Part shown: positions 10,254 through 48,131 of the stretch, one piece after another | Layout: every line of letters begins with the position of its first letter | How positions within the stretch are numbered: position 1 is the first letter of the stretch | From: Fimbriimonadaceae bacterium | GTDB taxonomy: Bacteria > Armatimonadota > Fimbriimonadia > Fimbriimonadales > Fimbriimonadaceae | Direction: 5' to 3' | DNA length: 64,000 nucleotides | Assembly (NCBI GenBank): GCA_022843485.1 | Contig: JALHNM010000003.1 | Coordinates: 186,001 to 250,000, forward strand | Made by a program: the position numbers and the translations under genes | The notes under the pieces: model-generated | Told to the model about the DNA's origin: nothing | Seen by the model: the letters and a program-made list of their open reading frames with translations, nothing else | The model's database searches: none

Positions 10254-13200
10254 TCACTGGAGCGGGGGCCGCGAGGAGAACCGCGGGGCGATCGTCTGCA
10301 GGTAGACGTCCGGGGCTCCTGCCCGGCTGCTTCCCCAGAAGAGCCAGACCAACCCAGGGCGCCGTCCATTCGACGTGGTGTTGTTAAATGGCCCGTTGAG
10401 CGGGTCGATCCCGAGGGTCAGGCCGCTCTCGTTGCCGACCTCCTCCATGGGGATCGCCTGTTCGTCGAACTCGGGCACGAGCCGCACCCGGTCTCGCCAC
10501 TCGACCGTGCCGACGCTGACGCCGGCCTGGTCGACGGCGGCGTACCGCACCGTCACGTCCCGTTCCTCCTGGTCGGACTGGAAGTACACCCGCCCGCTCG
10601 CCGGATCGATCTGATAGAACCGCTCGGCCCCGCCGGAGAACGTGACCGTGAAGTCGATCACACTCCCGTCGGGACGGACGGCGACCGGGAAGGGTAGTTG
10701 GACGCCGAACCGGAGGGTCCGGTAGAACGGCCGGGTCGCCGCGCTGCCCTCGCCGGAGGTGCGGGTGTAGGCGACGACGAACCGGTCCCAGCGGATCGGG
10801 GCGTCCAGCGGGGGCCGCTGACCGAGTTCGTTGCCCCAGTAGCTGAGGTCGCCGACGAGGTTCCGCTGGCTATTGTTGGGGAACCAACGCAGGCCAAGGA
10901 AGCGGTCGTCGAAGAGGCTCGCGACGGAGCGGTAGTTCGCCCCGGTGCCCGAGCTGACCCGAAGGATGCTCGGCTCGTAGCGGATGAAGAGCTTGGCCCC
11001 ACGGCGCAGGATCGCCCCGGAGAACCGGACGCTGCCGTTGGCGGTGTCAAGGGTGACGTCCCCGCCGAGCCAAGTCGCGAACCGGGCGATGCCGGACCCG
11101 CTGTCGAACGTGGGCGGCTGGGCCGGGTCGTTCTTGATCGACCGCAGGACGCCGTTCCGGTCGTACGTGAGCACGTCCAGGTTGGCGAGCCCCGCATCGG
11201 AGGTCTGCCACTGCAGGCCCGGTGCCCAGAAGACGCCGGATGCCGCATCGACGGTGAGCTCCTCTTGCCTCACCGGGTAGAAGAGGGGCCCGGTTCGGCC
11301 GCGGGGAGCCCCGGTCCGAGCGTCGACCGGCACCCGGGTCATGTAGACCTCAGCGTACCGGCGGCCACGGACGCGCGCGCTGAACGTGAGTTCGACGCGG
11401 GCGTTCCCCGGGTCGTTCCGGAACCGTCGGAGCGTGGCGCTCGGGGCCCCGAGGCTCTCGAACGCGTTGCCGAGGCGCAGGTTGCCCGTCCGCCACTGAT
11501 CGTCCGGACCACGCGACGGGTCGAAGTTCGTCCAGAAGAGCTGGCCGAGCGCCGACGAGGTGGACGTGACGTAGACCGTGGCGACTTCGGTCGAGCCGTT
11601 GCTCACCTGGACGATGCTGGGACGGCTCTTGCGCCCGGTCACGTCGAGGGGCGAAGCGGAGAGTTCGCTCGCCGTGTACCCGACCTGTCCGTCGTTCCCG
11701 AACCGCATCGGCGCGATCATGACCTGGCTAACGGTGGTCTGGTTGCCGGCCGCGTCGCGCTTCTCTGCCTCGCCGACGAACGCCATGTACCGGGGGCGCG
11801 AGTTGCCCCACAGGCGGCCTTGCTGCGTCGGTTCGTCGAGCATGTTGAAGAACCCGGCGCTTGGGAAGGCGGGCGAGCCGTACCGGTCGGTGCCGGGCAC
11901 GATCGTCTCGCCTTGCTGGAGCGTGAAGACCGAGTTCGGGTTCCACGACCCGTCGCCTGGGGGCACCACCGCCCCGTGGCGCATCCAGCGGTCGTCGTTC
12001 TCCGGCACCCAGGTGTTCAGGTCCCGGATCGGGCTCTCCGCCCGTCGCGCCGCCTCGTCGGTGAGGTTGCCGCGCAGCCCGCCGACGAAGATCCGCCATC
12101 GGTCCTGTCGGCCGAGGTCGGCGTCGGTCCGGGCGCGGGCCGCCCAGTCCGGGGCACCGCTCGAGCCGAGTCGGTTGGACGACCAGGCGACGAAGAGGTT
12201 GCCGAGCCCGTCGCGCATCCCGGTCGGCTGGACGTTGCCCCAGGCGTAGGACTCGTTGCCGTTGAGTAACCGGTCGGCGATCGGGGCGGCCTTCGAGCTG
12301 GCGGCGTTCGTGAGACGGGTCTCGCGGACGTTGACCTTGAGCATCGCCCCCGGCTGGCTGAAGCTCTCAGCCGGGTCGAGCGTCGGCTCCTGGGCGCCGA
12401 TGAGGGTCGGGACCCCGCTGTCCTCGAAGACGTAGAGCCGACGTTGGTAGGAGCCGCTCGGCGTCCCGATGGGCGCGGTCAGACTGACCCGGGGGTCCCC
12501 TGGCCGGACGAGGGTCTGGTCGTAGACGAACCCGCCCGGCGTGCGCAGGTTGGCGTTCGGCCGCGACCGCGGGTTGACGTTGAACCGAGTGCCGATCACG
12601 TCGCCCGGCCGGGCCTTCTGGACCATGTTCGAGCCGAACTGGTCGCCGCCCGGGCTGCCCGACCCGACACGTCGAGACGCCGCATAGCGGAAGTCGAGCG
12701 ACGTGTGGAGGTGCGAGGCCGCGTCGAGCCACGACAGCTCGTGCTGACCCGGGGAGAAGATCTCGACCGGGCGGGCGCCGAACTGATCGGCGAAGAACTT
12801 AGCCACCCGAACGTTGGTGAGGTTGACGTTCCCCTCGTTCACCACCGCGAACGGCTGGAAGAGGTCGCCGAACGGGTTGTCCCCGCTCGTCGGGTCCCAG
12901 GGGGTGAAGGCTGAGTTGGGGTCCCAGGGCGCCCGGGGGCCGAAGTTCTGGCCACCGTTGAACCCGCCGCCGCCCGGCACGGAGCCGAGGTCGATGGTGG
13001 GCGTCGCCATGGTGATCCGCTCGTCCGCGGCGACGCGGAGGCCGAGGCCGTAGCGCCGGAACACCTGGCTCCCTTCGTTGACCTGGCCGCTCCCGACCTG
13101 GGTTTCGAGGAAAACGAGCTGGCTGCCGTAGTAGCCGTCGCGCGGGCTAGGCGGCTGGAACCTCGGCACCACCAGGGTGGTGTCGAACACCGTCGGAGTG

Positions 13201-16200
13201 AGGTCCCTTCGGAGCTGGGCGTCGAAGCCGGTGCGGGTGCGGTAGAGCGCCACGCCGTTCGGGTCGCTGATCCGCGGCGGGTTGAGTTCGACCCCGGTCG
13301 CGAAGAGCGGGTTCTGGGCCGACCCGGCCGAGGACGCGGCGACGCCCATGTTCTCGCGGCCGACGTCGGGGTAGTCCAGGCTCCGGTTCGGGATCTGCGT
13401 CGGGTAGTCCTCGAAGCCGGCGAAGTTCGCGCGGAGCGGCTTGGCGACGCCCCCGGTCTGGGAGCCGTCCGGCCGCCAGGCGATGTCGCGCGGGCCCACC
13501 CGGACTTGGGTGAGACCCCGACCGAGGATCAAGACCATCAGGCTCCGGTCGATCACGATCACGTTTTGCTTGCCGGTGCCGCCGTGGGCGACGAACTCGC
13601 CCTTAGAGGTGAAGTCCGGCCCGAAGAACCCGGCGGGCTCGACGAACGTCGGGTTCGCCGCCCACTGGTCGACGTTCTCGTTCCCGTTCACGAAGAAGCG
13701 CTTGAACTCCTGCGAGGTCTCGTTCTCGTTGACGGGAAGGATGTCGCCGTCCCCGATGCTGAGGTCGACGGTGCCGTCGTTCCGGAGCATCCGCACAGCG
13801 AGCGGGTTCGCGGTGTAGAAGTCGCAGTCCGGGTTCGGCGTGAAGGTGGCCGGTTGGCGCAGCCGCACCTGGTCGCTCCGCAGTCCGCGTTGGCCCGGGG
13901 CGACGGCGCTGACGCGCACGAAGCCGGCGCCAGGCGTGACACCCGCGTTGCCGGTCGTCATGATCGGGACGCCGGTAAGGCAGAACCCTCGGCTCGGATT
14001 GTCGGAGAGCGGCCGGACGGGGATCTGTCGGCGTTGGCTGGTGCGCCCGGTGCTCGTGACTTCGAACTCCAGGTAGTAGTTCGCGAGGTTCCCGGTGAGG
14101 ATCGGGAGGTTCGCGACGAGGATGTAGAACGTCTCGCCGAACTCGAAGTGCCTCCGCTGGGCCTCCTCGGTCCGCGCCTGGGTGATGTCGCCGGTGCTGA
14201 TCTGCCCCGTGTCCGCCCGTTCGCGGAGCCGGTCGTAGGCTTCCGGCGAGAGGAGCACGATGTCGTCCCGGTTCAGGATCTGGTTGATCTGGTCGGTCTC
14301 GTCCTCGCCTTGGTCGATGGGCGGGTCGATCGGCGGGTCCCCGGGCGTGAGCGGCTGCGGGTCAGTGTCGCTGATCGAGTTGAACGCGTAGAGCGAGCCG
14401 GTGCTGTCCCCGGTGTACATCCAGGAGTGGCGGGGGTCGGCGCCGGGGTTGTCGAACCCACCGGCCGCGATGGAGGCGACCTGGTCGCTCCCGGCGAGGT
14501 TGACCCGCCAGAGACCATGCCGATTGTCGCGCCCAGTGGCACCGCCCGCCTCGAAGGCGCTGATGCGGCCGTTGATGGCGGGGACGAGCACGACGGGCAC
14601 GTTGCTGAACGGCCCGGCGCCGGTGGCGTCTCGAAGGCGCAGGTAGGTGAAGCGCAAGGAGGCGGCGGGGGCGGGGCTCTCGTCGACGACCCGCCAGCGG
14701 ACGGTCCCGTTCGCCGGGTCGAGCGACACGAACTTACCGTTCTGGTCGCAGAAGAACACTGAGTCGACCCCGTAGACCCCACCGTTGAACTGACCGGGCG
14801 GGTCGACGAGCATGCTCGCGGGCACGGCGACGCCCCCTGCCCGGCCGAACGACTGGAAGCCGCCGTTGGCGGTGTCGGGTTGGCGCCAGGCGAGGGTGCC
14901 GTCGGCCTCGTTGAGGGCGAAGACCTCGCCCACGGCCGACGTTTGGTCCTGGGTGGCGGCGAAGAAGACGCGGCCGAAGGCGACGACGGGGGTGACGTTC
15001 ACCGGCCCGAGCACCGGGTCGGTCGCGAGGGGCCACTGCCAGACGACGCTGGTCGTCTTGGTGGCGGAGTCGCCGGATGCGTCCAGGGCGGTGACCCGGC
15101 CCTCGGCCTGGGGCACGATGACGATGGGCCGGTTGCCCGCGGCGGTCCCGAAGGCGACCGAGCCGGCGATGGGTCGCAGGCCCGCTTGCATGGGCACGGT
15201 CGGGGTGGTCGGGTTGTAGTCGTCGGGGTAGGTCCAGCGCCGGACGGTCGTCCCGTCGCCGCGGCCCGCCACATCGAGGCAATAGACCTTGCCGTTCTGG
15301 CCGGCGATATAAAGGAGGTCCGTGCCGTTGACCCGTTGAACGAGGGCCGAGCTCACGTTGAAGCCGGTCGGGGCCTCGGCGATCCCGTCCTTTCCGTCTT
15401 GGTCAGGCGCGCGGTTCGGGTCGCTCGCGGGCCGCTCGCTCGGATAGGTCCAGTACACGGTCGGACGCCCGCCGTTCGCGGGGTCACCGTGGGCGTCCAT
15501 GCAGTAGAGGCGCCCGTTCTCCATCGCGACGATGACGACGGACCGCTCGACCAGTGCGTTGTTGACCCTGACCTGGGCGGTGACTTGGACGGGGGTCGAA
15601 TCGACGCCGAGGTCGGCCTGACGCACGAACCGGACGGCGTCGGCGTAGGCGATTTTGCCCGCGTCGGTGGCGTCGGTCGAGCCGTTCGTGATCGCCACGC
15701 GCAGCGGGGCGGCGAGCGGGTCGTTCGGCGTGCCGTCGCGAGGTTGGAACGGCAAGCGGTACCAACCCGCGGGCCGGGTCTGGTCGAGCGTGTAGGTGCC
15801 ATCGACCGTCGCCCCACGGAGGACCTGGACCTGGAGCGCTCGCGGCAGGTTCGCGTCGCCGGGGAGGTAGACCTCGACGAAGTAGCTGCCTTCTGGCAGG
15901 CTAGGCCCGTAGAGCACCTGCTCGGTGAACGGCCCGACGGTCACGCCGCCCCGGAAGTAAGAGGGCCCGAGGGCGGTCGGCCGGTCGGTCTGGGGCAGGA
16001 AGCCCGCGGTCGGGGCGACGCCGCCGTTCAGGTCGTCGACCTGAACGCGTTGGTCGGCCCGGCTCAGGCTCTGGTCCGGGGCAAGGTCGAGCCCGAGGAT
16101 CCAGTCCCGGCGCCCGGTGGCGTAGGCGGTGACTTCGGCCTCGCTCGTGTTGAACGGCCGCTTGACCGGGAAGGACCAGACGAGGTTTCGCCGGAACACG

Positions 16201-17195
16201 TTCCCGGGTTCGGCTTGGAAGCCGTTGTGGACGAAGGACGTCGTGACGCCGAGGCGGTACTGGCGGCTGAGGTCGCCGACGAACGTGGACTCGTTGGCCG
16301 GGCTGACGACGCGCCAGCGGAAGGTCTCGGTGGCGCCGTTCGGGCGGGTCGCGCCAATTCGGCTCACGACGGGCGTCGCGGTGATCGTGCTCGAGCCGCG
16401 GCGGCTCTGGCTCACGACCTGGGCGGCGTCGGCGTAGACGAGCTCTTCGCCAGGCCGGGCGGAGGGGTCTCGCGGCTGGCCGTCCACGTCGAGCGGGACG
16501 GTGTTGTAGAGCGTGACGAGCAGCGTCGTGCCGGTCGGGCGGAAGGTGCGGTCGGTGGAGAGGCCACCGTTCCCGATGCGGATGTACCCGCCCGCGCCGA
16601 TCGTGAAGTCGACGACGTCCGTGAAGTCGCCGCCGTCGGCACCGGTCACTCGGTAGACCCAGTAGCGCTGGGGGAACCGGGAGACGCCGCCTCGGACGGT
16701 CGGCCCCACAGGCAGGTTGACGTAGAGCTCGTGGTCGACCCCTTGTTCAAGGTTCGAGAACTGCCACCGGTAGGTGGCGGTGGCCCCGGCCGTGGGATCG
16801 GTCGAGCTCGTCCCGCGAGCGGTCTGGACGTAGCGGTAGGGGACCGTTCCGACGGTGTTCTGGACGTAGCCGAACGCGAGCGTCTGGGCGTTGAGCGCGG
16901 ACTCCCAGATCCCGGTCCCGACCGAGCCGCCGGGCGAGTCGTTGTCGACGGTCGACCGGATCGCCTGGATCGGGTCCCACCAGCGCAGGAACGCGCGCCC
17001 GGGCTGGTTGTACTCCCAAGCGTCCCGCCCGCCGACGACGTCGGCGGGGAGCCCGGTGCGGTTCGGGTTCCCTGCCGCCATCGGGAAGTCCTGGGCGAAG
17101 GCGACGAGGCCGAGGACGGCCGTCGCGAGGACGGTCGTCAGGGCGGCCACGAGCCGCGACGGGCTCTTCCGAGCCGAGTTCGGGGTCCAGTCCAT
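10254..17195 (-). CDS. Giant exported protein with golvesin-like domains and PQQ-type beta-propeller
   Basis: A 2313-residue protein with an N-terminal signal peptide (hydrophobic stretch about 15-34, ending LVAFAQ). Two beta-rich stretches, about 90-260 and 425-525, end in the pattern W/Y...F...YADA(V/A)xFV, which resembles golvesin-type domains. Residues about 550-940 hold repeated propeller blades of PQQ type (NGRLYCMDA, NGKVYCLDVAG, GEVFALNEADGTLAWRQ, NGKFVSLDPANGTVRW). The remaining 1350 residues are long beta-rich regions without a domain I recognise. The ATG at 17195 is 3 bp after the upstream stop. It is the last gene of the minor-pilin operon, the place held by the propeller adhesin PilY1 in Proteobacteria. 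A cell-surface or pilus-tip role is inferred. Confidence 0.8.
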   Translation of the reverse strand: MDWTPNSARKSPSRLVAALTTVLATAVLGLVAFAQDFPMAAGNPNRTGLPADVVGGRDAWEYNQPGRAFLRWWDPIQAIRSTVDNDSPGGSVGTGIWESALNAQTLAFGYVQNTVGTVPYRYVQTARGTSSTDPTAGATATYRWQFSNLEQGVDHELYVNLPVGPTVRGGVSRFPQRYWVYRVTGADGGDFTDVVDFTIGAGGYIRIGNGGLSTDRTFRPTGTTLLVTLYNTVPLDVDGQPRDPSARPGEELVYADAAQVVSQSRRGSSTITATPVVSRIGATRPNGATETFRWRVVSPANESTFVGDLSRQYRLGVTTSFVHNGFQAEPGNVFRRNLVWSFPVKRPFNTSEAEVTAYATGRRDWILGLDLAPDQSLSRADQRVQVDDLNGGVAPTAGFLPQTDRPTALGPSYFRGGVTVGPFTEQVLYGPSLPEGSYFVEVYLPGDANLPRALQVQVLRGATVDGTYTLDQTRPAGWYRLPFQPRDGTPNDPLAAPLRVAITNGSTDATDAGKIAYADAVRFVRQADLGVDSTPVQVTAQVRVNNALVERSVVIVAMENGRLYCMDAHGDPANGGRPTVYWTYPSERPASDPNRAPDQDGKDGIAEAPTGFNVSSALVQRVNGTDLLYIAGQNGKVYCLDVAGRGDGTTVRRWTYPDDYNPTTPTVPMQAGLRPIAGSVAFGTAAGNRPIVIVPQAEGRVTALDASGDSATKTTSVVWQWPLATDPVLGPVNVTPVVAFGRVFFAATQDQTSAVGEVFALNEADGTLAWRQPDTANGGFQSFGRAGGVAVPASMLVDPPGQFNGGVYGVDSVFFCDQNGKFVSLDPANGTVRWRVVDESPAPAASLRFTYLRLRDATGAGPFSNVPVVLVPAINGRISAFEAGGATGRDNRHGLWRVNLAGSDQVASIAAGGFDNPGADPRHSWMYTGDSTGSLYAFNSISDTDPQPLTPGDPPIDPPIDQGEDETDQINQILNRDDIVLLSPEAYDRLRERADTGQISTGDITQARTEEAQRRHFEFGETFYILVANLPILTGNLANYYLEFEVTSTGRTSQRRQIPVRPLSDNPSRGFCLTGVPIMTTGNAGVTPGAGFVRVSAVAPGQRGLRSDQVRLRQPATFTPNPDCDFYTANPLAVRMLRNDGTVDLSIGDGDILPVNENETSQEFKRFFVNGNENVDQWAANPTFVEPAGFFGPDFTSKGEFVAHGGTGKQNVIVIDRSLMVLILGRGLTQVRVGPRDIAWRPDGSQTGGVAKPLRANFAGFEDYPTQIPNRSLDYPDVGRENMGVAASSAGSAQNPLFATGVELNPPRISDPNGVALYRTRTGFDAQLRRDLTPTVFDTTLVVPRFQPPSPRDGYYGSQLVFLETQVGSGQVNEGSQVFRRYGLGLRVAADERITMATPTIDLGSVPGGGGFNGGQNFGPRAPWDPNSAFTPWDPTSGDNPFGDLFQPFAVVNEGNVNLTNVRVAKFFADQFGARPVEIFSPGQHELSWLDAASHLHTSLDFRYAASRRVGSGSPGGDQFGSNMVQKARPGDVIGTRFNVNPRSRPNANLRTPGGFVYDQTLVRPGDPRVSLTAPIGTPSGSYQRRLYVFEDSGVPTLIGAQEPTLDPAESFSQPGAMLKVNVRETRLTNAASSKAAPIADRLLNGNESYAWGNVQPTGMRDGLGNLFVAWSSNRLGSSGAPDWAARARTDADLGRQDRWRIFVGGLRGNLTDEAARRAESPIRDLNTWVPENDDRWMRHGAVVPPGDGSWNPNSVFTLQQGETIVPGTDRYGSPAFPSAGFFNMLDEPTQQGRLWGNSRPRYMAFVGEAEKRDAAGNQTTVSQVMIAPMRFGNDGQVGYTASELSASPLDVTGRKSRPSIVQVSNGSTEVATVYVTSTSSALGQLFWTNFDPSRGPDDQWRTGNLRLGNAFESLGAPSATLRRFRNDPGNARVELTFSARVRGRRYAEVYMTRVPVDARTGAPRGRTGPLFYPVRQEELTVDAASGVFWAPGLQWQTSDAGLANLDVLTYDRNGVLRSIKNDPAQPPTFDSGSGIARFATWLGGDVTLDTANGSVRFSGAILRRGAKLFIRYEPSILRVSSGTGANYRSVASLFDDRFLGLRWFPNNSQRNLVGDLSYWGNELGQRPPLDAPIRWDRFVVAYTRTSGEGSAATRPFYRTLRFGVQLPFPVAVRPDGSVIDFTVTFSGGAERFYQIDPASGRVYFQSDQEERDVTVRYAAVDQAGVSVGTVEWRDRVRLVPEFDEQAIPMEEVGNESGLTLGIDPLNGPFNNTTSNGRRPGLVWLFWGSSRAGAPDVYLQTIAPRFSSRPPLQ

Positions 17196-17198
17196 ACT

Positions 17199-20100: not shown

Positions 20101-21980
20101 CTCGGGCTCGTGAGGAGCGGCAAGCCGAAGCGGGAGGCCCGAGTGAAGAGGTTGATCGAGTTGCCCGTGATCTCCTTGCGGTCCGGGTTCTCGCCGCGGG
20201 CACCGAGCCAGACGCTGATCAGCCCGGCTGGCCGTTGGACGACTCCGGTCGACGGTTGGGTGGCGCAGTAGACCACGCGGTCGGCGCCACCGGACCCATC
20301 GAGGATCGGGATGTAGCCCACTGTGGGCTCCGAGGAGAGGGGCGGGGTGCGGCCTGCGCTACTGATCGTGAACGTGTTGGGCCCCTCGGTCACGACTTGG
20401 GCCCGGGCGAGGTCCGCGACCCACAGTCGGCCGGCGGTCTGGTTCTGCACCTGCGCGGTGTCGGCGAGGACCACGAGCCCCTCATGGACGGTGGGCGCGA
20501 ACGGACCGGCGTTCGAGTCCGGGGTGAACCCGGGGAGCGGCCCGAGCGTGGCGAGGGCCGGCTGGTTCAGCGGGTCGCCCGTCGGGTCGAGTGGGAGGAC
20601 GAACGCTTGGCCGTTGTCGCCCATCACCCAGACCTGGTCGGGGCTGGCGAGGAGGGTGTCCGGGGACTCGACCACGGTCGGAGCGGAAAGCCTCGACGCG
20701 CCGCCGAGCGGGGCGGACTGGTAGACGAGGTCGCCGAGGACCCCGACGGGGTTCGGGGCGCCGTCGTCCGGGTTCCCGTCGAAGTCGAGGTCGCGGTCGG
20801 GCCGGCCATCGTAGACGTACACCCGGTTCCCTTTCGTGAGGACGACCCGGCCCTTGAAGAGGGCGGGCTCTTGGCCCGCGCGGAAGGTCCCCCCGCCCTG
20901 GTCGTCGATGAACCTTCGCAGCATCGGAGCGGACACGTCGACGCTGTTGCTGCCGGAGCGGCGGGAGTTGCCCGCAGCGCTGGTCGAGGCCCCGGCCGCG
21001 GCCACGACGTTGAAGGCCAGCTTGGCGGCGGCGACGAACGACGGGTCGCTCACGGCGGGACGGGCCGTGTAGCCGCGGTTCGCGAGGAACCCGGTCGGGT
21101 TCGCCGGGTCCACCCCGCGGTTCAGGTTGGCCGTGACCCCACGGGTCGTGAGGACGAAGGCACCCTGGCCGATCTGGGCGGTGCTCACCGTCCGCTGGGC
21201 GGCGTTCCCGGCGATGCCCGCCACGGGGACGAGCCGGGCCGACTCCCACGGCAGCCACGAGAGGAACTGCGGGATCGAGCCGAGGTCCCCGGCCTCGAGC
21301 GGTCGCGAGACGAGCCGCAGGTTCTGGAGCGGGTTCTCGGTGAGTTGGAGGTCGAAGAGCGACAGGGCGTTCGGGAACCTCATGAGCGGGTGCTCGAGGT
21401 TCGCGTCGACCGGGCCGTTGTTCTGTCCGACCCCGAACGGCACGGGCAGCGGGTTGCCGATGTCGAAGTCCGGCGTGCCGCCGACGTCGTCGACCAGATC
21501 GGCCCAGAGCACGCCGCCTTGGTCCACGAACCGGCGCAGCCGGTCGCGCTCGGCGGCGGTGAGGCTCACCCCGCGGTACAGGCTGACGACGAGCACGTCG
21601 TAGGTCGCGAGGACCTCGTCGCTCACGTCGGCGAGGCGCACTTCCCAGTACGGCGCCGTCTCGCGGGTGACCCGGGTGCCGGCGACAGGGGTGCTGGCGT
21701 CGAGCAAGGCCCACCGGGCGCGGATCCCGGCGGTGAGGACAGTGGGCGCGAGCGGGTTCGAGAGCGCGATCCGGGCGGGCCGGACGCTCGTGTCCTTGTC
21801 CAGGTTCGCCCAGACGAACGGCGCCGGGTTGGCGACGGCCCCGTTGACCCGCTGGCTATCGATCAGCAGCACTCCGACCCGGACCTCCACAGCGGTGGCG
21901 GCGTAGTTCAGGGGCTGGCCGGTGGCGAGCGCGGCGAGGAGGCCGAGGAGCAGGGTCAAAAGGGGGCGCGTGGTTCTCAC
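17199..21980 (-). CDS. Giant exported protein with GATase-like N-domain and propeller/NHL-type repeats
   Basis: A 1593-residue protein. I chose GTG 21980 because it overlaps the preceding stop (GTGA) and opens into a signal peptide (RPLLTLLLGLLAALATGQP); the open frame continues upstream to 23009 only inside the previous gene. Residues about 105-150 (VLVVSLYRGVSLTAAERDRL, then FVDQGGVLWADLVDD) look like a glutamine-amidotransferase-like/DUF4159 fold. A propeller-like region follows with a calcium-type loop DLDFDGNPDDG near residue 400. Further on is an NHL-like stretch (FDPSGNPVWTTD, NGSLIVDTGSDRIVRVDAA). It lies between the PilX-like gene and the second giant gene, 3 bp from the latter. Surface display or pilus association is inferred. 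Confidence 0.78.
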   Translation of the reverse strand: MRTTRPLLTLLLGLLAALATGQPLNYAATAVEVRVGVLLIDSQRVNGAVANPAPFVWANLDKDTSVRPARIALSNPLAPTVLTAGIRARWALLDASTPVAGTRVTRETAPYWEVRLADVSDEVLATYDVLVVSLYRGVSLTAAERDRLRRFVDQGGVLWADLVDDVGGTPDFDIGNPLPVPFGVGQNNGPVDANLEHPLMRFPNALSLFDLQLTENPLQNLRLVSRPLEAGDLGSIPQFLSWLPWESARLVPVAGIAGNAAQRTVSTAQIGQGAFVLTTRGVTANLNRGVDPANPTGFLANRGYTARPAVSDPSFVAAAKLAFNVVAAAGASTSAAGNSRRSGSNSVDVSAPMLRRFIDDQGGGTFRAGQEPALFKGRVVLTKGNRVYVYDGRPDRDLDFDGNPDDGAPNPVGVLGDLVYQSAPLGGASRLSAPTVVESPDTLLASPDQVWVMGDNGQAFVLPLDPTGDPLNQPALATLGPLPGFTPDSNAGPFAPTVHEGLVVLADTAQVQNQTAGRLWVADLARAQVVTEGPNTFTISSAGRTPPLSSEPTVGYIPILDGSGGADRVVYCATQPSTGVVQRPAGLISVWLGARGENPDRKEITGNSINLFTRASRFGLPLLTSPSGPNGALGLKVTIIKPTGEPFTRAELEQTLDGTVSQTPSGVINLGLRPGRPPFDYDGRGGNPANVVSWRIDYTIDWSRAGQFGGASPDNYVRGNLELPDDTNLGRRIVGSPAIGPTGAIFVTTTGSGDDQSDGGTFYAFREDRGPGQFSMAARFDLYRALEYQLNTGAGTPETLQVPTVFGDTQDLVRLFRPLDTPMFRYRFVGGPVVKGQTVYAMANAVKDLGFAQANTGVLVAFKADPPTPSFEIEGQESNFTLVQPDPSLSTNKRRPEQFSQLQPGQFTVEPIPGTTRSRVILGSLMNVVRGRVRDSISTSLPVIVRRAGSTDTVVEPDALQDNGRFISGRSGGRWSPILWYNVVNGFAPGSAPRVAGETIYLGGLSVLPSILSGIFPPRFNGLIFAQDANLSPNDEFLVPDPARPWQSQLWAFRQNANPEGPFDVRPATAVKWPQFRGITEFDDLRIRVNQAALPENEDVLNLAIGDSTLAVTSENGLYVFAKSDFLVADSGRVSRFDPSGNPVWTTDQTFQAGSGQPTGTSNVSRQLSEPNRVYPADENGSLIVDTGSDRIVRVDAAAREVRTVTGFIVDPRFVPTGLPAQGAASGMQPGASRSLSRPKDVLSFETVVRDADNPFSNARPVERWVHYLIADSGNRRVVEVVDRYELDSRGRNLGVVQFTDIDGRSRRALGVLYWHSPEELSGKDYAYTSIGRVRAVDPNDPNQQRTIVALGFGNVEVGRGTFGLAGGNEQADRTGGNGGIVLYDGSRTEVLTEFVRPPIAARTFLGEIPGQPGQYDWLLPSLNQEARTQKLVGLSSVTLRYVPDGGVNRLAVMFTDATGVYEVVQRTAGGPWETRWMLPAEAYVSIRRPRSAPPYDRSRLAVNATALRPTFARRLDSGDVLVVNGYVGQRFDGRRFQGEVVMLDGSFDGPATDPGYALTKRNLGFTALSVLFELPPVVGARGLVAPVFAQRQ

Positions 21981-24900
21981 GGGTTCACCTCGCCGAAGTA
22001 GGCGAGCGTCGGGCTGACGGGCAGTCTCGGCATCGGCGGTAGCGCCCGGCCGAACTCGTCGGTCCGGAGCGGTGTGCGCCCGTCGGCGCTCGATGAGGCG
22101 AGCACCGGGTCGTAGACCAGCGTCAGGTTCGGGACGGTCGGGTTGGCCGAGAGGTCGAGGCCCGAGGTGTGCTGGGCCGGGATGCGGCGGCCGCTGGCGC
22201 CGATGAGGCGCGGCATCCAGCCCCACTTCTTGAGCCATTCCGCTTGGGCGCTGATCGGAGCGGGCATGTTCTCGCTCACGGCGCCGAAGAGGCTCACCCG
22301 GACGGCGAGCGGCTCGCCGTAGAACGGGACCTCGGGCGAGTGGCCGTACAGTTCGAACCGCCGTTGGCGCGCCTCGTCGTCGTTGAGCCCTCGGTAGGGC
22401 GACCCCGCGGTGGTCCGGTCGAGCCAGGCCTGGCGGGTGTCGTCGCTCTTGAGGTTCGTCCAGTGGCCGGGGATCACGAAGAAGGACCCGTCCTCGGCGA
22501 AGAGGGAGGCCTCGATCCGCACGTCGTGGGGGGCGACCGCGACTCTGGAGGCGAGGTAGTTCTTCATCGGCACCTGGCCGACGGCGTTCATCCGCACCCG
22601 AAGGAACGTCGGGTCCTGGACGCCGAGCGCGATCGGGCCGATGTCGGGGTTGTTCGAGACGAGGTTGCGCCCGTTGAACGTGAAGCTCGCGTCGACGAGC
22701 GGCAGGCCGACGTTCTCGAACTTCGGGAACGCGTTGAGCGCGGGGTTGCCGAGGCCGTAGACCGGCACGGTCGTGCCGTTCGGGAAGAACGGGCTCGCCG
22801 CGTTGAACACGACCTGGGTCGCGCCGAAGTCGATCGTCCGCGGGACGAGCAGTGTCGCCCAGTCCCCGCCGCCGAGGTACCGGCCGCTGAGGGCGTCGAC
22901 CGAGACGAACCCGGGGCCGTTGTCGTCGGCCGCGCTCGTGAGCAGCAGCCGGGTCGGGATGCTCCCCCCGCCGCCCGCCTCGGTGTAGGTCCGGGCGTAG
23001 GGCTGCCACGAACTCGGGTTCAGCGGGTTGCCGCTGAGCGGGTCGAGCAGGAAGGCGGTCTCGAGCACGATGTCGGGGTTGTCGATCCGGAGTTCGAACG
23101 GGTTGGCCGTGTCCGGCGCGGCGTTCGCGTCCTTCTCGTCCACCCGTTCGCCCGGGGCGGGGCCGAAGAACAGCGTCGTGTTAAGCGTGACGTAGTCCCG
23201 CGCCATGAGCATCGCCATCGACCGGCTCGGCCGTTGCAGGACCGTCCCCGTCTCGTCGACGACCCCTTTCGTCACGCTGCCGTCCACGTAGACCGTCCCG
23301 AACGAAGCGAGCGTGATCTGTTGGTCGGTGGGGATGACGCCGCGGACCCGGACGTCCCCTTCGAACAGCAGGACGCCGTTGAAGAGCCGGCCCGCTAGTC
23401 GGAAGTCTTGGTCGGTGAGCGAGGCCCCCGGCCTGCCGACCAGGGCGGGCTGGGTGATCGAGTCGATGACCATCGGTCGGCGTGCGTCGGCCGCGGTCGG
23501 GTACCCGACGCTCCGGACGCGGAACCGGGCCCTCGTCTCCGTCGTCGGCCCGCCGTCCGGTCGGCGCCAGAACGGGACTCGGCTCCGGGTGTCGCGTACG
23601 ATCTCGAACCCGTCGGGCAGGAGCCTCACGGTCGGGGCGCGCGGGATGTAGAAGGGCCCGCGCCAGCCTTCGGTCTGGGCGTTGTTGGGGTTGAGCCAGT
23701 CGGTCGGCAGGGATCGGACGGCCCCGGCGATCTGGCGCTCGTCCTCGCTGTTCGAGTTCCCCCGCTCCGGCGAGTCGACGTAGACGCCGCTCCCGTAGCC
23801 GAACCTCCCGGAGTTGCGCCCGTTCACGAGCGCCCCCGAGTCGCGGGTCAGGACAAGGTAGCGGTTGAGCCCGTTCTGGGGGTCGGTCTCGATGATCGAG
23901 GGCGGCTCTTTCCGGGCCGCGCCGCGGCTAAAGCCGTCGACGTCGGCGTCCTGTCGGCCGTCGCGAAGGACGCCGCCCAGGGTCGTGAACCGGGCCGCAC
24001 CGCTATCGAGCGGGTACCCGTTCGCGGGCGGGTCACCCGCCACGACGAGGGGGTTTTGGAACGTGGACGCGTTCGACCCTACTGAGTCCGACCACGCGCT
24101 GCCCCAGGTCGAGTTGGCGGGGCGGTAGACGCTGCGGATGACCCGCAGGCGGGCCCCAGAGTTCCCGGGCGCGATGGACCCCGCCACGGACCAGCCCTCG
24201 TTCACGAAGGCGTTGAGGACGATGTCGTTCTGGCCGAACACCTTGAGGTCGGCGTTGCTATGCAGCGACCCTCCCCCGGGCGTGCGCTCCCAGTTCGGGG
24301 CGCCGGGCGTCCCGTCCGGGAACGCCTGGCCCCAGAGCAGGGTGCCGGCGACCGGTTGGACCTGCCCCGCCACGTCGCCGTAGGTGACGCCAAGGCCGAC
24401 CTCGTCGAACGGGTTCCGGGCCCCGGTGCTCGCGCTCGCGGCGGGGAAGCCGATCTCGGCGGGCCGGGAGACGCGGTCCTTGTTCGTGACGAACCGGGCG
24501 GTCTCGACGATCCCGATCGAGGCGAACGCGAGGAGGCTCCGCGAGTCGGTGAGCTGGGCGTCGGCCTGCTTGATCCGGCCAAGCTCCCTGGTCTTGTCGG
24601 CGAGGCTGGCGTAGCCCGCCACCTGGACGCGCTGGCCGAGCCGGAGCGTCGGGTCCTCGCGCCGGTCGGTGCGCAGGGCCCCTGGGCGGCCGACGACCTC
24701 GACGGAGAGGTAGCCCCTCGCCTGTCCCGGACGGCGCAGGTTCCCGGTCGGGTTCGCGAAGCTGTCGAACTCGGACGGGGCGTAGCGCACCCTGACGAGG
24801 GCCCGCCCCCGCTCGAAGAAGACCCGGCTGTAGGGGCCGAGCCCGTCCGGCCCGCCGAGGTCGACGAGCCCGGGGACAGGGTTGCCCCCCCGGTCCGGGA

Positions 24901-25240
24901 AGGCGAGTGGGTCGGCCGGGCGCAGGTAGGCGGCGTCCGGGTCCCTCGTGAAGCCCTGGGCGTCGACGTCGAGCGCGGTCGGGGTCGGCCGCCAGTCGGC
25001 CCCGAGGGCCGAGAACCGGAGTTGGTAGTGGGCGTACTCGGCCCCTGCGCGCGCCAGGTCACCGGCGAGCGTGCGTTTCGACGAGGTGTCGGCGCTGCGG
25101 ATGTTCCCGGAGAGGACGGCCGCGAAGGCGAACCCGAGCGACACGAGTACGCCCAGGAGGATCACGGCGACGACCAGGGTCTGGCCGGACTGTCGGCTAC
25201 GGGCTCTCGGGGGGGTGGTCACCATCGTGTCGGCTCTCAT
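21977..25240 (-). CDS. Giant PilX-like/GspK-like minor pilin
   Basis: A 1087-residue protein, several times longer than usual PilX. Near the N-terminus the segment SGQTLVVAVILLGVLVSLGF (from about residue 18) matches the PilX N-terminal helix. Cleavage could occur after the Gly, and Glu is missing at position 5, as in GspK. It continues with ADTSSKRTLAGDLARAGAEYAHY, the usual PilX amphipathic helix. The rest is a very long beta-rich exported region with a DADVDG calcium-type loop near residue 430. ATG 25240 overlaps the PilW-like stop (ATGA); an internal ATG (MVTTPP) is an alternative. By family it would help prime pilus assembly at the inner membrane. Confidence 0.78.
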   Translation of the reverse strand: MRADTMVTTPPRARSRQSGQTLVVAVILLGVLVSLGFAFAAVLSGNIRSADTSSKRTLAGDLARAGAEYAHYQLRFSALGADWRPTPTALDVDAQGFTRDPDAAYLRPADPLAFPDRGGNPVPGLVDLGGPDGLGPYSRVFFERGRALVRVRYAPSEFDSFANPTGNLRRPGQARGYLSVEVVGRPGALRTDRREDPTLRLGQRVQVAGYASLADKTRELGRIKQADAQLTDSRSLLAFASIGIVETARFVTNKDRVSRPAEIGFPAASASTGARNPFDEVGLGVTYGDVAGQVQPVAGTLLWGQAFPDGTPGAPNWERTPGGGSLHSNADLKVFGQNDIVLNAFVNEGWSVAGSIAPGNSGARLRVIRSVYRPANSTWGSAWSDSVGSNASTFQNPLVVAGDPPANGYPLDSGAARFTTLGGVLRDGRQDADVDGFSRGAARKEPPSIIETDPQNGLNRYLVLTRDSGALVNGRNSGRFGYGSGVYVDSPERGNSNSEDERQIAGAVRSLPTDWLNPNNAQTEGWRGPFYIPRAPTVRLLPDGFEIVRDTRSRVPFWRRPDGGPTTETRARFRVRSVGYPTAADARRPMVIDSITQPALVGRPGASLTDQDFRLAGRLFNGVLLFEGDVRVRGVIPTDQQITLASFGTVYVDGSVTKGVVDETGTVLQRPSRSMAMLMARDYVTLNTTLFFGPAPGERVDEKDANAAPDTANPFELRIDNPDIVLETAFLLDPLSGNPLNPSSWQPYARTYTEAGGGGSIPTRLLLTSAADDNGPGFVSVDALSGRYLGGGDWATLLVPRTIDFGATQVVFNAASPFFPNGTTVPVYGLGNPALNAFPKFENVGLPLVDASFTFNGRNLVSNNPDIGPIALGVQDPTFLRVRMNAVGQVPMKNYLASRVAVAPHDVRIEASLFAEDGSFFVIPGHWTNLKSDDTRQAWLDRTTAGSPYRGLNDDEARQRRFELYGHSPEVPFYGEPLAVRVSLFGAVSENMPAPISAQAEWLKKWGWMPRLIGASGRRIPAQHTSGLDLSANPTVPNLTLVYDPVLASSSADGRTPLRTDEFGRALPPMPRLPVSPTLAYFGEVNP

Positions 25241-27579
25241 CGGACGAAGTTCCTGGCCTCCGCCGCCCCCCGCACCGTGATGTTCTGCGGGTTGGGCAGG
25301 TTCTGCGACTGCGGGAAGTTACGGATCGTGACCGTGAACTCGACGACTTGGGTCGTGTCGTAGTCCACCGCCACCACGTCCTTCGGTTCCGTGTATTGGA
25401 AGCGGTAGCTGACGTAGATGTTCCCCGTCGGCACGAACCCGTTCGGCCCTCGGAACCCGCTCGGGATCGGCTCGCCGAACCGCGAGTTCAGTTCGACGTA
25501 ACCCGCGCGGTAGGGCGCCTGCAGCACGGCTTGGAAGAACTCGTCGGCCCGGTAGGCCCGAGGGTCGTACCGCAGGTCCCCGATCGTGTAGGGCAGGCCG
25601 AGCTCGCTCCAGCGCGGCTCCGGCTGGTCGGTGTAGTTGATCAGGTACTGGTTCGGCCCCACCGGCCGCTGGGTGACCCGCGTGTAGCGCACGTACCGGC
25701 CGTAGTTTGGGCCCGGTCGTTGGTCGGGGCCCACAACGACCTCGCTCCCCGGCGTCAGGACGGCCCTAGCCACCACGTCCGCAGGGTCTGCGGCGGGCAG
25801 GAGGGGGCTCAGGCTCCCGTCGGCCTGGGGCACCGCCCGCAGGTCGATGAAGCGGCGCACGTAGGTGGCCCGGTCCAGCCCCGGCGCGAGGCGCGGGAAG
25901 TCGGTCCAAAGCTTGTTGAACGTCCGGTTGACGGGTTGGAACCGTTCGTCGCTCCAAACGCCGGTCCCCACGTCGGGGTCGTTGTTCGGGGTGAAGTCCA
26001 GCGGCGTGTTCGGGTCGTAGGGGCTCACGCGCACGCCGACGCGGTCGGCGACGTTGGGGGCCCCGGCGGCGCTCTGTTGGCCGCGGGTCGGGACGCGAAG
26101 GTCGTAGGCGAGCGAGGCATCGGTGCCGACCTCGTTGATCGGGAAACTCCCGACGAGCTTGCCCCCTCGGGGGTCCGGCACGACCGGGACGAAGTTGACG
26201 AGCCAGCGGGGGTCCTGCAGCCAGTTCGTCCGCGAGTCCGCCGACGCCACCGCCGCGGTGAACGCGTACGGCCGTCCGGGCGTGTCCTTCGGCAGCCGGA
26301 GCACCTCGAGGTAGCGGCTCACGTCGAACACTTCGACCCCTTCGCGCTCGTCGTCCGACATCGTGGCCGGGTCGAACCCGAACAGCCCCACCCGTTCGAC
26401 GCCGGCGAGCGTCCAGGCCCGGCCGACCAGGTACGGTCCGCCGCCCCATTCGCCCCGGACGTCCCCGGCCCGGGCGAGGTTCTCGCCGAACGCCGGGGGC
26501 CAGAGGCTCGGCCAGACCCGGTAGTTGACGTTCGCCCACGCCCCGTACTGGGTCGTGAACACGTCCGGACCCACCTTGTCCGTGTTAAAGGCCTCCTCGC
26601 CGGTGCGCACGGCGAGCTCGCCGGGCACCGCCTCGCTCGTCACCCGCTTGGGCTGGAACCGGACGAGGCTCACGAGCCGCGGGACGTTCCCGTCGTACTG
26701 CACGCGCGGCGGGCTCGTCTTCTCGACCACGGGCGCGACCATGTCGAACCGGCTGACCTCCGTCACCACCGTCGCCCGTCGGAGCCAGTTCTGCATCCGG
26801 ACCGCCTTGCCCCGGCCGACGGCGGTGAGGGCGGAGTTCGCGACGTTGAAGTCCTGGCCCGGCAGCAGGGTGAAGAAGGCGGGGTCGTCGAGGTCGTCCG
26901 GCGTGCCGTCGAGGTCGTCGTCCAGGAAGAGCCCGGTGTCCACGACCGGTTGGAGCCGTCCGTTGACCGTCCGCCACACCCGCGGCTGGACCTCGGCCCG
27001 GAACAGCACGTAGAGATTGTCCCGCTCGCCGCTCCGGGCCATCAGGAGCCCGTCGTAGGGGTTCGTGTACCGCGCGGCCCCGGCGGGGGAGCCGTCGTTC
27101 CCAAGGACCAGCGGCTCGCGGAGCCCGACGAAGTAGCGCACGAGCGTGCTGCCCTGCCTGGCCGGGAGCTGCTGCTGGCCTTTCGGCGCCCGCAGGGTGG
27201 GGTCGAAGCGCCCAGTGTCGGGGTTACGGAACGCACCTCCGGGGCCCCGGTCTTGCGGGTCTCCCTCGGCGGGCCGGACGAGGTCGAGCTTCGCGAAGGG
27301 CAGGCGCACCACGACGGGGGTCCGGTCCCGCCCCGGCACGACCACGTCGATCGCCCCCCGTTCCGCGTTGTTGTCCCGCACGGACGCGGCGTTGCCGACC
27401 TCCCGCTCGAGCTGCCGGACGAGGGTCCGGGCCCGGTCTTGCGCTTGGGAGAACGACTGGGCGGCCCTGGTGAGGTTAAAGCCCTGCACCACCGGCACCG
27501 CGATGATCGTGAGGAGGATCGCCGAGATCGCGATCGCCGTGATGAGTTCGATGAGCGTGAACGCGCTGTGTCGCCGCAT
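25237..27579 (-). CDS. Giant PilW-like prepilin
   Basis: A 780-residue protein with a class III prepilin leader: MRRHSA, then FTLIELITAIAISAILLTII, with Glu5. The helix continues (QSFSQAQDRARTLVRQLEREVGNA), which is the PilW/GspJ pattern with frequent Arg and Gln. PilW is normally about 250-300 residues; the extra length is a large unrecognised domain. Residues 220-232 hold an aspartate-rich calcium-type loop (DDDLDGTPDDLDD). ATG 27579 starts 6 bp after the PilV-like stop, and the 3' end overlaps the PilX-like start. It belongs to the minor-pilin series of this operon. Confidence 0.83.
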   Translation of the reverse strand: MRRHSAFTLIELITAIAISAILLTIIAVPVVQGFNLTRAAQSFSQAQDRARTLVRQLEREVGNAASVRDNNAERGAIDVVVPGRDRTPVVVRLPFAKLDLVRPAEGDPQDRGPGGAFRNPDTGRFDPTLRAPKGQQQLPARQGSTLVRYFVGLREPLVLGNDGSPAGAARYTNPYDGLLMARSGERDNLYVLFRAEVQPRVWRTVNGRLQPVVDTGLFLDDDLDGTPDDLDDPAFFTLLPGQDFNVANSALTAVGRGKAVRMQNWLRRATVVTEVSRFDMVAPVVEKTSPPRVQYDGNVPRLVSLVRFQPKRVTSEAVPGELAVRTGEEAFNTDKVGPDVFTTQYGAWANVNYRVWPSLWPPAFGENLARAGDVRGEWGGGPYLVGRAWTLAGVERVGLFGFDPATMSDDEREGVEVFDVSRYLEVLRLPKDTPGRPYAFTAAVASADSRTNWLQDPRWLVNFVPVVPDPRGGKLVGSFPINEVGTDASLAYDLRVPTRGQQSAAGAPNVADRVGVRVSPYDPNTPLDFTPNNDPDVGTGVWSDERFQPVNRTFNKLWTDFPRLAPGLDRATYVRRFIDLRAVPQADGSLSPLLPAADPADVVARAVLTPGSEVVVGPDQRPGPNYGRYVRYTRVTQRPVGPNQYLINYTDQPEPRWSELGLPYTIGDLRYDPRAYRADEFFQAVLQAPYRAGYVELNSRFGEPIPSGFRGPNGFVPTGNIYVSYRFQYTEPKDVVAVDYDTTQVVEFTVTIRNFPQSQNLPNPQNITVRGAAEARNFVR

Positions 27580-27585
27580 AAGCCT

Positions 27586-29676
27586 TTACCCTCGCCCTCC
27601 GACTTGCATGCTCTGGCTCTCGTTCCTTCGCCAGGACCGCGACCAGAACTCGAGCGCCGCATAGTTCGCGACGGGGTCGGTGCCGAGCGCGAAGGAGCCG
27701 GGGTTCCAGACCGCCCGCACCCGCATCGAGGCGCCCCGCACCCGCCGGACGGCGTACCCGCGCGAGAAGTCGAACACCGTGTTCGGCCCCATCTTGCCCC
27801 GGATATCGACGAACGCCACGTTGCCTTGGGCGCCGTCCACTTCGAACTCTTGGTCGAAGAGCGGGGTCGGCGGGTCGTTCGTGCCCCGGCTCACCCACAG
27901 TTCACCGACGATGACCTTCTGGCCCCGGTCGCTGAGCGGGAAGTAGAGGCGGTACGGGTCGCCCTGGGGCCGCCCGTTGGCGTCCGGCGTCCCTCCGACG
28001 AGGCACTCGCCCGGGCCGAGCCCGTTCGCGCGGAAGACGTATGAGAGGCGGTAGTTCCGGGCCGCCTTGGCCGGTTGCACGGCCCACTCGCCGACGCCCA
28101 TGTAGTGGGCCCTCAGGCTCCGGCCGCTCAGGTCGGCGACCTGCACCGGGGCGCTCCACGGGGCGTTAGGGTCGCCGGTCGGGTAGACTACCCACGCTCC
28201 GAGCCCGTCCTGGTTCGGGAAGACGTCGCGCAGGGTCACGACCCCGTTCGACTTGTCGACCGAGTACCCGCTGTCCGAGCGCTGCCCGTCGTTCCCGAGC
28301 ACGACCCCGCCCGTTTCGGCGTCGACGAGCACGAAGTCCCCGTCCTGGACGACCGGGTTGCTGGCGGGCAGGGTCGGCACGCCGAGCCCGACCCCCGAGA
28401 CGGGGCGTCCGTCCGGCCCTTGGTTCCCCTTCACCTTCAGGTTCGTGAGCGCGAGCTTGACTGTCCGCGGCCCGCTCACGGGCACTCGGAATTCGTCCCT
28501 CATGACCCTCCAGTCGAAGACGGTGTAGTCGACCCGGGCTTGGAGCGGCACCCGGCCCCCCTGGGCGGTCTGAACCTTGGCGTCCGCCGCGTCTGGGCTC
28601 AGCCACACTTGGCCGAGCGCGAACCCGCGACCCGTACCGGGGTCGGTTCCCGAGGCCACGACCTTGTACTCGTAGGGCTCGCCGGGCGTGAACGGCGCGC
28701 TGAGCGGCCGCTCGAGGAAGACCCGTTGCAGCCGGATCGAGGAGGCCTCGGTGCCGAGGTAGAGCTGGGGGTCGAACTGGCTCGAGCCGCCCGGGTCGTT
28801 GACGTCCGGCAGCGCCACGAGCTGCCGCAACGAGACCACCCAGTAGTTCCCCGCCCGGACCGCGTAGGGCACTGGGTTGGCCGGGTCGAGAGTCGCCTGG
28901 ACGATGACGTCGAACTGGTCGGTCCGGCCCCCGTTGTCGTAGAGGAAGCTGAACGCGATCCGGAACGCACGCGCGGTAGAGGGGCCTACCCAGAGCTGGT
29001 CCTCGCCCGGGAAGTACGTGTCGTCCGTGCTCTCGGAGTCCACGAAGAAGAACTCCCAGTCGCGCGGCGAGCCGCCGGGGTTCGGCCGGTTGATCGAGCG
29101 GTCGCCGAACCGGCGGGCGAGGTCGTTGCCGTAGACCTGCAGCACCCCGGTCTCGCCGACGCCGGTCGCAGCGTCGCGGAAGTAGTAGACCGGGCCGAAC
29201 GTCAGGTTGAGCACCGAGACCGGCTGGCCGTTGACGACGCCGCGGCCCGGGACGGGACGGGACTCGCCCACGACCCGAGAGAAGACATTGGGCCCGCTGG
29301 CCGTGGCCCAGTCCCCGAAGCGCTGCCCGTCCACCAGCACGTTCCCGTCCTGGTCGATCCGTCCGACCCCGTCCGAACTCCGCGGCGGCATGAGGTCGCC
29401 CCAGTTCCGCGTCGGGTCGATCTGCACCCGCAGGCCCGCCGTCGTCCGGGTGTAGGTCACGGGGACGATCATCTCGGCGACCTGGCCCGGTTGGCCCAGG
29501 ATGCGTTGCGTCTCGGTAGAGGCGAGTTGGGCGGCGACCGTGTTGTTCCGGGTCGTCCGCAGGAGTTGCAGGCCCGGCGGGAAGATCTGGACCACGGCCA
29601 GGATCCCGACCAGGAACACCACGATCACGACCAGCACTTCGATGAGGGTCGTCCCGGCTCGGCGGTTCTTCGGCAT
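27586..29676 (-). CDS. Giant PilV-like prepilin
   Basis: A 696-residue protein with prepilin leader MPKNRRAG, then TTLIEVLVVIVVFLVGILAV, with Glu5 and cleavage after Gly8. The next helix (RTTRNNTVAAQLASTETQRIL) is the typical PilV/GspI continuation. Usual PilV is about 150-200 residues, so roughly 500 residues of extra beta-rich sequence are attached. It follows the GspG-like pilin gene by 90 bp and precedes the PilW-like gene by 6 bp. By analogy it would be part of the minor-pilin initiation complex. Confidence 0.83.
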   Translation of the reverse strand: MPKNRRAGTTLIEVLVVIVVFLVGILAVVQIFPPGLQLLRTTRNNTVAAQLASTETQRILGQPGQVAEMIVPVTYTRTTAGLRVQIDPTRNWGDLMPPRSSDGVGRIDQDGNVLVDGQRFGDWATASGPNVFSRVVGESRPVPGRGVVNGQPVSVLNLTFGPVYYFRDAATGVGETGVLQVYGNDLARRFGDRSINRPNPGGSPRDWEFFFVDSESTDDTYFPGEDQLWVGPSTARAFRIAFSFLYDNGGRTDQFDVIVQATLDPANPVPYAVRAGNYWVVSLRQLVALPDVNDPGGSSQFDPQLYLGTEASSIRLQRVFLERPLSAPFTPGEPYEYKVVASGTDPGTGRGFALGQVWLSPDAADAKVQTAQGGRVPLQARVDYTVFDWRVMRDEFRVPVSGPRTVKLALTNLKVKGNQGPDGRPVSGVGLGVPTLPASNPVVQDGDFVLVDAETGGVVLGNDGQRSDSGYSVDKSNGVVTLRDVFPNQDGLGAWVVYPTGDPNAPWSAPVQVADLSGRSLRAHYMGVGEWAVQPAKAARNYRLSYVFRANGLGPGECLVGGTPDANGRPQGDPYRLYFPLSDRGQKVIVGELWVSRGTNDPPTPLFDQEFEVDGAQGNVAFVDIRGKMGPNTVFDFSRGYAVRRVRGASMRVRAVWNPGSFALGTDPVANYAALEFWSRSWRRNESQSMQVGGRG

Positions 29677-29766
29677 AGCGTTTCGTTCGTGCAGGTTGGC
29701 GTGGGTCGCGGGCGCTCCCGGTCTCGTTCGGACGGGTCGGCGCCGGTGGGGTCTCGGGCCGCCCGG

Positions 29767-30642
29767 TTAGGGCTTGACCCTCCAACTCCGCTCGGCCATC
29801 AGGTTCGAGGCGAACGGGCGGGCCCCGCCGCCCAGGAACACCACGATGTCCTGGTTCCCGGCCTGGAGCCGGTCGTCCTGGAAGTTGCGGTCGTACCCGT
29901 GCCAGAACATGACCGTCTCGGCGGGCGGCTCGTTGTAGCCCAGCTGCCGCGGGTCGTCGAGGGCGCTGCCCAGGTTGGTGCCGTCGCCGACGAGCGAGTA
30001 CCCCGTCCAGAACAGGGCGTAGCGGAGCTCGACCTGAGAGCGGATCCCCGGCCGGCGGGTGTCGGCTACGTCATAGCCGCTCACGCGGTAGAACCGGAGT
30101 TGCCGCTGCGGGTCCGAGCAGGGCACCAGGCCCTCGCAGACCGGCTGCGGGTTGTCCACGAAGTTGAAGGCCTGGCGGGCCCCGGCGGTGTCGTCGTCGC
30201 CGTTCACCTGGCTGTCGCCGTTGAAGTCGCCGAGCGGGGCCGTGCCCACCGCGCGAGGGTCGGCGGCGGGCCAGAGCGCGGTCGTCACGTCCGAGTCCTT
30301 GAAGGGGTTCGCCCCGTTCTTGAACGTCGCCAGGCTCACGACCCGCTTCGGGTAGAGGAAGCTCTTGACCAAGTTCGCGGGCACGACGTCGTTCCCACCG
30401 GGGGTGTAGGTGGTCACATAACCGAGCAGGGCCGGGGGATAGCCACCCTGATCGACCCGGTACAGCTGGAGGGCCGTCCGGAGCGTGTTCATGTTCGTAA
30501 TGTCCCCGGAGCGCCGAGCCGTCACCTTCGTGTTCTGGTAGACCGGGAAGATGATCGCGGCCAGGATCGCGATGATCGCGATCACGGTGAGCAACTCGAT
30601 CATGGTAAAGCCTCGGCTGAGCCGGCGGTTCTTCGTGCGCAT
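29767..30642 (-). CDS. GspG/PilA-like pilin with EF-hand-like calcium loop
   Basis: A 291-residue pilin with leader MRTKNRRLSRG, then FTMIELLTVIAIIAILAAII, with Glu5 and cleavage after Gly11. The helix continues as YQNTKVTARRSGDITNMNTLRTALQLYRVDQGGYP, the classic GspG (major pseudopilin) pattern. Residues 139-150 (DFNGDSQVNGDD) form an EF-hand/dockerin-like loop; GspG proteins also bind calcium. Two Cys near residues 168 and 173 could form a disulfide. It is the first pilin of the operon, has a good Shine-Dalgarno (AGGGGGAAC) and lies 59 bp after the prepilin peptidase gene. Confidence 0.88.
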   Translation of the reverse strand: MRTKNRRLSRGFTMIELLTVIAIIAILAAIIFPVYQNTKVTARRSGDITNMNTLRTALQLYRVDQGGYPPALLGYVTTYTPGGNDVVPANLVKSFLYPKRVVSLATFKNGANPFKDSDVTTALWPAADPRAVGTAPLGDFNGDSQVNGDDDTAGARQAFNFVDNPQPVCEGLVPCSDPQRQLRFYRVSGYDVADTRRPGIRSQVELRYALFWTGYSLVGDGTNLGSALDDPRQLGYNEPPAETVMFWHGYDRNFQDDRLQAGNQDIVVFLGGGARPFASNLMAERSWRVKP

Positions 30643-44730: not shown

Positions 44731-44732
44731 GC

Positions 44733-46622: not shown

Positions 46623-48131
<1,509 letters not shown>

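Follow-up and report, generated by a model that had tools for sequence, protein, structure and literature searches.

On the minus strand of the Fimbriimonadaceae DNA analysed here (the window, a stretch of 64,000 nucleotides from contig C3, in a 98.8% complete genome of 2.96 Mb), six consecutive genes encode pilin-like and exported proteins. In order, these are a GspG/PilE-like pilin of 291 aa (29767..30642), a PilV-like minor pilin of 696 aa (27586..29676), a PilW-like minor pilin of 780 aa (25237..27579), a PilX/GspK-like minor pilin of 1087 aa (21977..25240), and two giant exported proteins of 1593 and 2313 aa, which we label P5 (17199..21980) and P6 (10254..17195) and whose signal peptides were read from the sequence. 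The prepilin peptidase PilD (342 aa, 30702..31730, same strand) lies upstream and is 49-69% identical to its copy in same-family relatives. A first-pass annotation, made from the letters alone, had reported six genes of these sizes on one strand behind a prepilin peptidase, and all of the frames are present. The close packing that it described from PilV onward is likewise confirmed by the coordinates, with a 6 bp gap between PilV and PilW, 4 bp overlaps between PilW and PilX and between PilX and P5 (with a GTG start), and a 3 bp gap between P5 and P6; the GspG-like pilin and the PilV-like gene are separated by 90 bp.

The same annotation considered every component greatly enlarged. This holds for five of the genes but not for the GspG-like pilin, which at 291 aa stands at the top of the range that the annotation took as normal, is 261-315 aa long in relatives, and probably serves the operon as its major or base pilin. 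The lengths encoded by the operon are real and not frame artefacts, because the relatives have medians of 663, 745, 1067, 1588 and 2291 aa for the PilV-like, PilW-like and PilX-like proteins, P5 and P6. The window also contains another N_methyl pilin just past P6 on the opposite strand (8343-9221, plus), the source genome having 37 N_methyl matches, as well as a 16S rRNA gene (46623-48131, minus) that is apparently unlinked, since no 23S or 5S match was found in the window.

Pilin N-termini and enlarged minor pilins

The pilin N-termini seen in the first reading are supported by PF07963, which scores above its cut-off in the GspG-like pilin (3.8e-07), the PilV-like protein and the PilW-like protein (2.8e-06), and by a mature Glu5 that is invariant across the PilV-like and PilW-like families (E13 and E11 in the respective precursors, at the sites RRAG/TTLIE and RHSA/FTLIE). 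The GspG-like pilin also matches TIGR01710 (GspG) at 1.2e-11, below the cut-off. TIGR02523 (PilV) is matched by 21 of 22 PilV-like orthologues, with the window protein itself below cut-off, and the PilW-like profile matches solved pilins (E 1e-4). The PilX-like protein has the site RQSG/QTLVV, and its family carries an invariant Gly before this QTL-type site and a residue other than Glu at position 5. The presence of Glu5 in V and W and its absence in X agree with what is known of PilV, PilW and PilX/GspK; the PilX of Myxococcus is also reported to be without Glu5 (PMC7541494).

In the PilX-like protein, neither PF07963 nor PilX_N was matched and no family scored above cut-off, while weak GspK similarity appears in 4/27 members; its closest named relatives by sequence search are from Armatimonadetes/Fimbriimonadaceae. 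Its structural model contains a long N-terminal helix (residues 18-76) at low overall confidence (pLDDT 49). The family profile had no match in the PDB, and a Foldseek search of the model, uninformative at this confidence, returned nothing at E <0.05. The extensions of the PilV-like and PilW-like proteins matched no family searched. The C-terminal tail of the PilX-like family is conserved as LPPxPRLPVSPxLxYFGE. One PilX-like homologue elsewhere has a single in-frame stop inside an otherwise long match, either a sequencing error or recent decay.

Enlarged minor pilins as such are already known, with precedents in ComZ and in modular pilins. The latter are widespread, with over 1,200 proteins in 264 architectures, and in Streptococcus sanguinis PilB and PilC, as in the proteins described here, extra modules are placed on a pilin N-terminus for display by the filament (PMC8179133); unlike in that system, the minor pilins of our operon are all enlarged, are so phylum-wide, and have modules that match no named domain. 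Thermus thermophilus ComZ resembles the PilX-like protein in being a large GspK-like tip pilin that lacks the standard motif and is encoded beside other minor pilins, and it carries a large inserted beta-solenoid (PMC6561018). The operon could accordingly be read as part of a competence pilus in which the PilX-like protein acts as ComZ does, with P5 and P6 as accessory DNA- or wall-binding proteins. We consider this rather unlikely: PilX-like proteins do show weak similarity to FapA, MinC_C and DUF7305, but these solenoid-type matches are confined to single members at E 0.03-0.4, and the PilX-like model is too poor to confirm a solenoid. The PilX-like protein also differs from ComZ in being about twice its size, and partners resembling P5 and P6 are not reported for ComZ.

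N-terminal matches to the Verru_Chthon cassette A-D (TIGR02600, 02598, 02599 and 02596) and to the cyanobacterial pseudopilins HpsB/HpsC were found in some members of the operon families: V to Verru_Chthon B (8.5e-07), W to C/D (2.9e-07 and 9.6e-07) and to HpsC (1.4e-08), and X to Verru_Chthon A (0.006). Unlike components of that cassette, the window proteins fall below the curated cut-offs or are unmatched. The similarity may lie in the pilin helix only, and it offers a lead that may hint at a wider group of large-pilin cassettes. TIGR02600 was also searched in the source genome and had no match.

Domains of the two giant exported proteins

The first-pass annotation could name no domain in the roughly 6,000 extracytoplasmic residues of the operon proteins, a statement that does not survive profile and fold searches. 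P6 contains a PQQ_2 propeller (residues ~680-887) that is present in 22/22 orthologues, and most orthologues (16/22) also have Golvesin_C, with a best value of 9.8e-36 and a position, in one of them, at residues 320-462, N-terminal of the propeller. The C-terminal ~1200 aa of P6 matched no family searched. P5 has a DUF4159-like domain near its N-terminus, detected weakly in 20/26 orthologues, with the window protein scoring below the cut-off, and a model of residues 370-1569 (pLDDT 71) predicts two beta-propellers after it. Fold comparison makes the first one BamB-like, with long insertions (Z 22, rmsd 2.8 over 294 residues), and the other WD40/NHL-like (Z about 15). The propeller fold alone is not informative on function.

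P5 also carries calcium motif 1 of PilY1, Dx(D/N)xDGxxD (PMC13190605), which occurs at a similar position in 22/26 orthologues with 0.12 expected by shuffling; in the window protein it lies at residue 397, close to where the first predicted propeller begins. The P5 C-terminal tail is conserved as PxFADR. An ELP motif near this end was considered as a counterpart of the LQNVYELP strand of Myxococcus xanthus PilY1.3 (PMC11046646) and dropped, as only 11/26 orthologues have it. Two P5 homologues in other genomes contain a single in-frame stop each within otherwise long matches, from sequencing errors or recent decay.

The analogy with PilY1 made in the earlier reading gains strength from propellers, calcium motif and gene position, but the giants are not members of PF05567, which matched neither P5, nor P6, nor any orthologue scanned. 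Across 81 genomes PF05567 was likewise absent (0/81), a weak result given that the control genomes were silent too. The PilY1 propeller structure 3HX6 was not among the 50 fold matches listed for P5, which excludes nothing.

Conservation and linkage to the pilus machine

Profile searches covered 291 genomes of the phylum, with 194 good genomes and 45 families in the set. Among the good genomes, the PilX-like family was found in 188/194, the PilW-like family in 182/194 and P5 in 172/194, although the remotest families give weak PilX-like and PilW-like matches (E about 1e-7 to 1e-20), for which the pilin helix may be largely responsible. A contig search with the PilX-like protein returned only Armatimonadota records (one titled "bacterium"). 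The first-pass annotation had the phylum, Armatimonadota, right. Same-family relatives keep the order PilD-pilin-V-W-X-P5-P6 at full length, and PilD adjoins the operon upstream in every same-family locus that extends that far. Thirteen loci in other families all have V-W-X-P5 (13/13), and P6 comes next in nine; one of the remaining contigs ends before the P6 position, and in three loci from two families (f34 and f35) P6 is absent, with unrelated genes following P5. The conservation of these genes together, in order and in length, across the phylum is the opposite of what the first-pass annotation had named as grounds for abandoning its proposal.

One genus of the same family with a 1.5 Mb genome (two genomes seen) has shrunken V, W and X and lacks P5 and P6, with pilB and pilT present, and this looks like genome reduction. 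Since P6 is missing in some families and both giants are missing in this genus, neither P5 nor P6 is needed in every case. The pilus ATPase family PF00437 was found in 9/9 genomes checked, six of them without a PilX-like match, so that the operon can be absent where the ATPase is present, a weak result from nine genomes of which several are fragmented assemblies.

The gaps in P6 distribution, together with the likeness of the P6 propeller and the first P5 propeller to the very general BamB-type fold, could be taken to mean that P5 and P6 belong to the surface or wall, happen to be encoded in this operon, and put their propellers to a separate use such as BamB-like envelope assembly. This seems improbable: P5 follows the PilX-like gene in all 13 other-family loci and in two further ones (L069 and L070), it has a calcium loop of the PilY1 type, and many relatives have it flanked by genes of the pilus machine.

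That machine is the type IV pilus apparatus. In eight families (f1, f5, f8, f9, f15, f16, f32 and f34) the series pilB-pilT-pilC-pilD precedes the operon on the same strand, pilB being cut off in a few loci where the contig or stretch ends. In four families (f1, f5, f15 and f32) pilM with pilN, pilO and pilQ follows the operon, although pilN and pilO were not detected in every locus with a downstream pilM. One same-family genome, a single contig of 5,231,762 bp, shows the unbroken series from pilB to pilQ. No upstream linkage was seen in some good genomes of families f2 and f13. The pilV-W-X-(Y1) gene order recognised at first reading and the pil genes proposed as its companions are thus, in relatives, parts of one shared locus.

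The source genome carries its orthologous pilB/pilT pair, together with pilC, on contig C8 and its pilM-N-O-Q genes on C1, so the locus is broken up here. It also has more pilB/pilT paralogues and a second set of pilM-N-O-Q; the two separate clusters of this type (L121, 10017-16088; L122, 3792-9623) suggest two pilus-type machines. The window contains a tandem PilC/GspF-like pair (43747-45965, plus), whose members share 25% and 30% identity with the operon-type PilC; the true orthologue of that PilC is on C8.

The presence of pilT and of the pilM-Q set in the operon locus points to a type IVa-like pilus and not to type II secretion. A pseudopilus tip, with P5 and P6 as secreted substrates or parts of a secretion tip, would fit the best score of the GspG-like pilin, which is with GspG, and the GspK-like N-terminus in 4/27 PilX-like proteins; it would not fit the linked pilT and pilM-pilN-pilO-pilQ series, and substrates would not be expected to remain collinear with minor pilins, as P5 does in all other-family loci examined and P6 in most. 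We regard this explanation as very improbable. For the same reason, namely linkage to an otherwise ordinary type IVa-like machine with its retraction ATPase, the earlier suggestion of a new kind of appendage or a secretion tip is not sustained.

A putative large pilus tip

Based on its linkage to pilB-T-C-D and pilM-N-O-Q, we propose that the operon is the tip or priming segment of the main type IVa-like pilus locus of Armatimonadota, encoding minor pilins and tip proteins of a large V/W/X-P5-P6 tip, and we hold this with a probability of about 0.8. The enlarged minor pilins and, in most genomes, the two giant propeller proteins probably make up a pilus tip of unusual size that stands in for the usual PilY1. 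The operon resembles the FimU-PilV-PilW-PilX-PilY1 set of type IVa pili in Myxococcus and Pseudomonas in the V-W-X-then-propeller order, the pilin N-termini, the loss of Glu5 in X only, the linkage to pilB/T/C/D/M/N/O/Q and calcium motif 1. It differs from that priming complex in the size of V, W and X, which are several times larger, in having two giants where there is usually one PilY1, and in lacking PF05567 and a clear FimU.

Gene content and order, pilin N-termini, linkage, phylum-wide conservation, propeller predictions and the calcium motif come from computation; from these, and by analogy, we infer an assembly order, docking, tip location and ligand binding as follows. PilD would cleave the four prepilins, and the PilV-, PilW- and PilX-like pilins would join by way of their N-terminal helices to form a cap whose outermost member is the PilX/GspK-like protein, which lacks Glu5. 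The two giants would be exported to the periplasm and dock on this cap at the place usually taken by PilY1. The Myxococcus complex has PilY1 sitting on four minor pilins at the tip and primes extension (PMC7541494, PMC11046646); by analogy, P5 would stand on the V/W/X cap, with or without P6. Candidate docking points are the C-terminal tails that are conserved in the PilX-like protein and in P5. PilB would then polymerise pilin beneath the cap and so push a tip of ~6,500 residues through the PilQ pore, and PilT would retract the pilus bearing it. Such a tip may bind surfaces or polysaccharides through its calcium-dependent propeller and golvesin-type modules.

Knowledge of type IV pilus tips comes from few phyla, with PilY1 regarded as the standard tip adhesin. 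The tip set encoded by the operon is some three to four times the size of an ordinary V/W/X/PilY1 set. As a complete set, three enlarged minor pilins with two giant non-PF05567 propeller proteins, phylum-wide and inside a pilus locus, have no match among the known systems compared here, and the literature searched yielded nothing on an Armatimonadota pilus tip. More tentatively, and at somewhat less than even odds, Armatimonadota may have replaced PilY1 with an unrelated giant propeller pair on a hypertrophied minor-pilin cap, which would make this a second, independently evolved type IVa tip. Under the main tip model proposed above, most of the phylum would use an oversized tip built from proteins without a named family, a prospect that bears on the load that a PilQ-type machine can carry and on surface attachment in the little-studied Armatimonadota.
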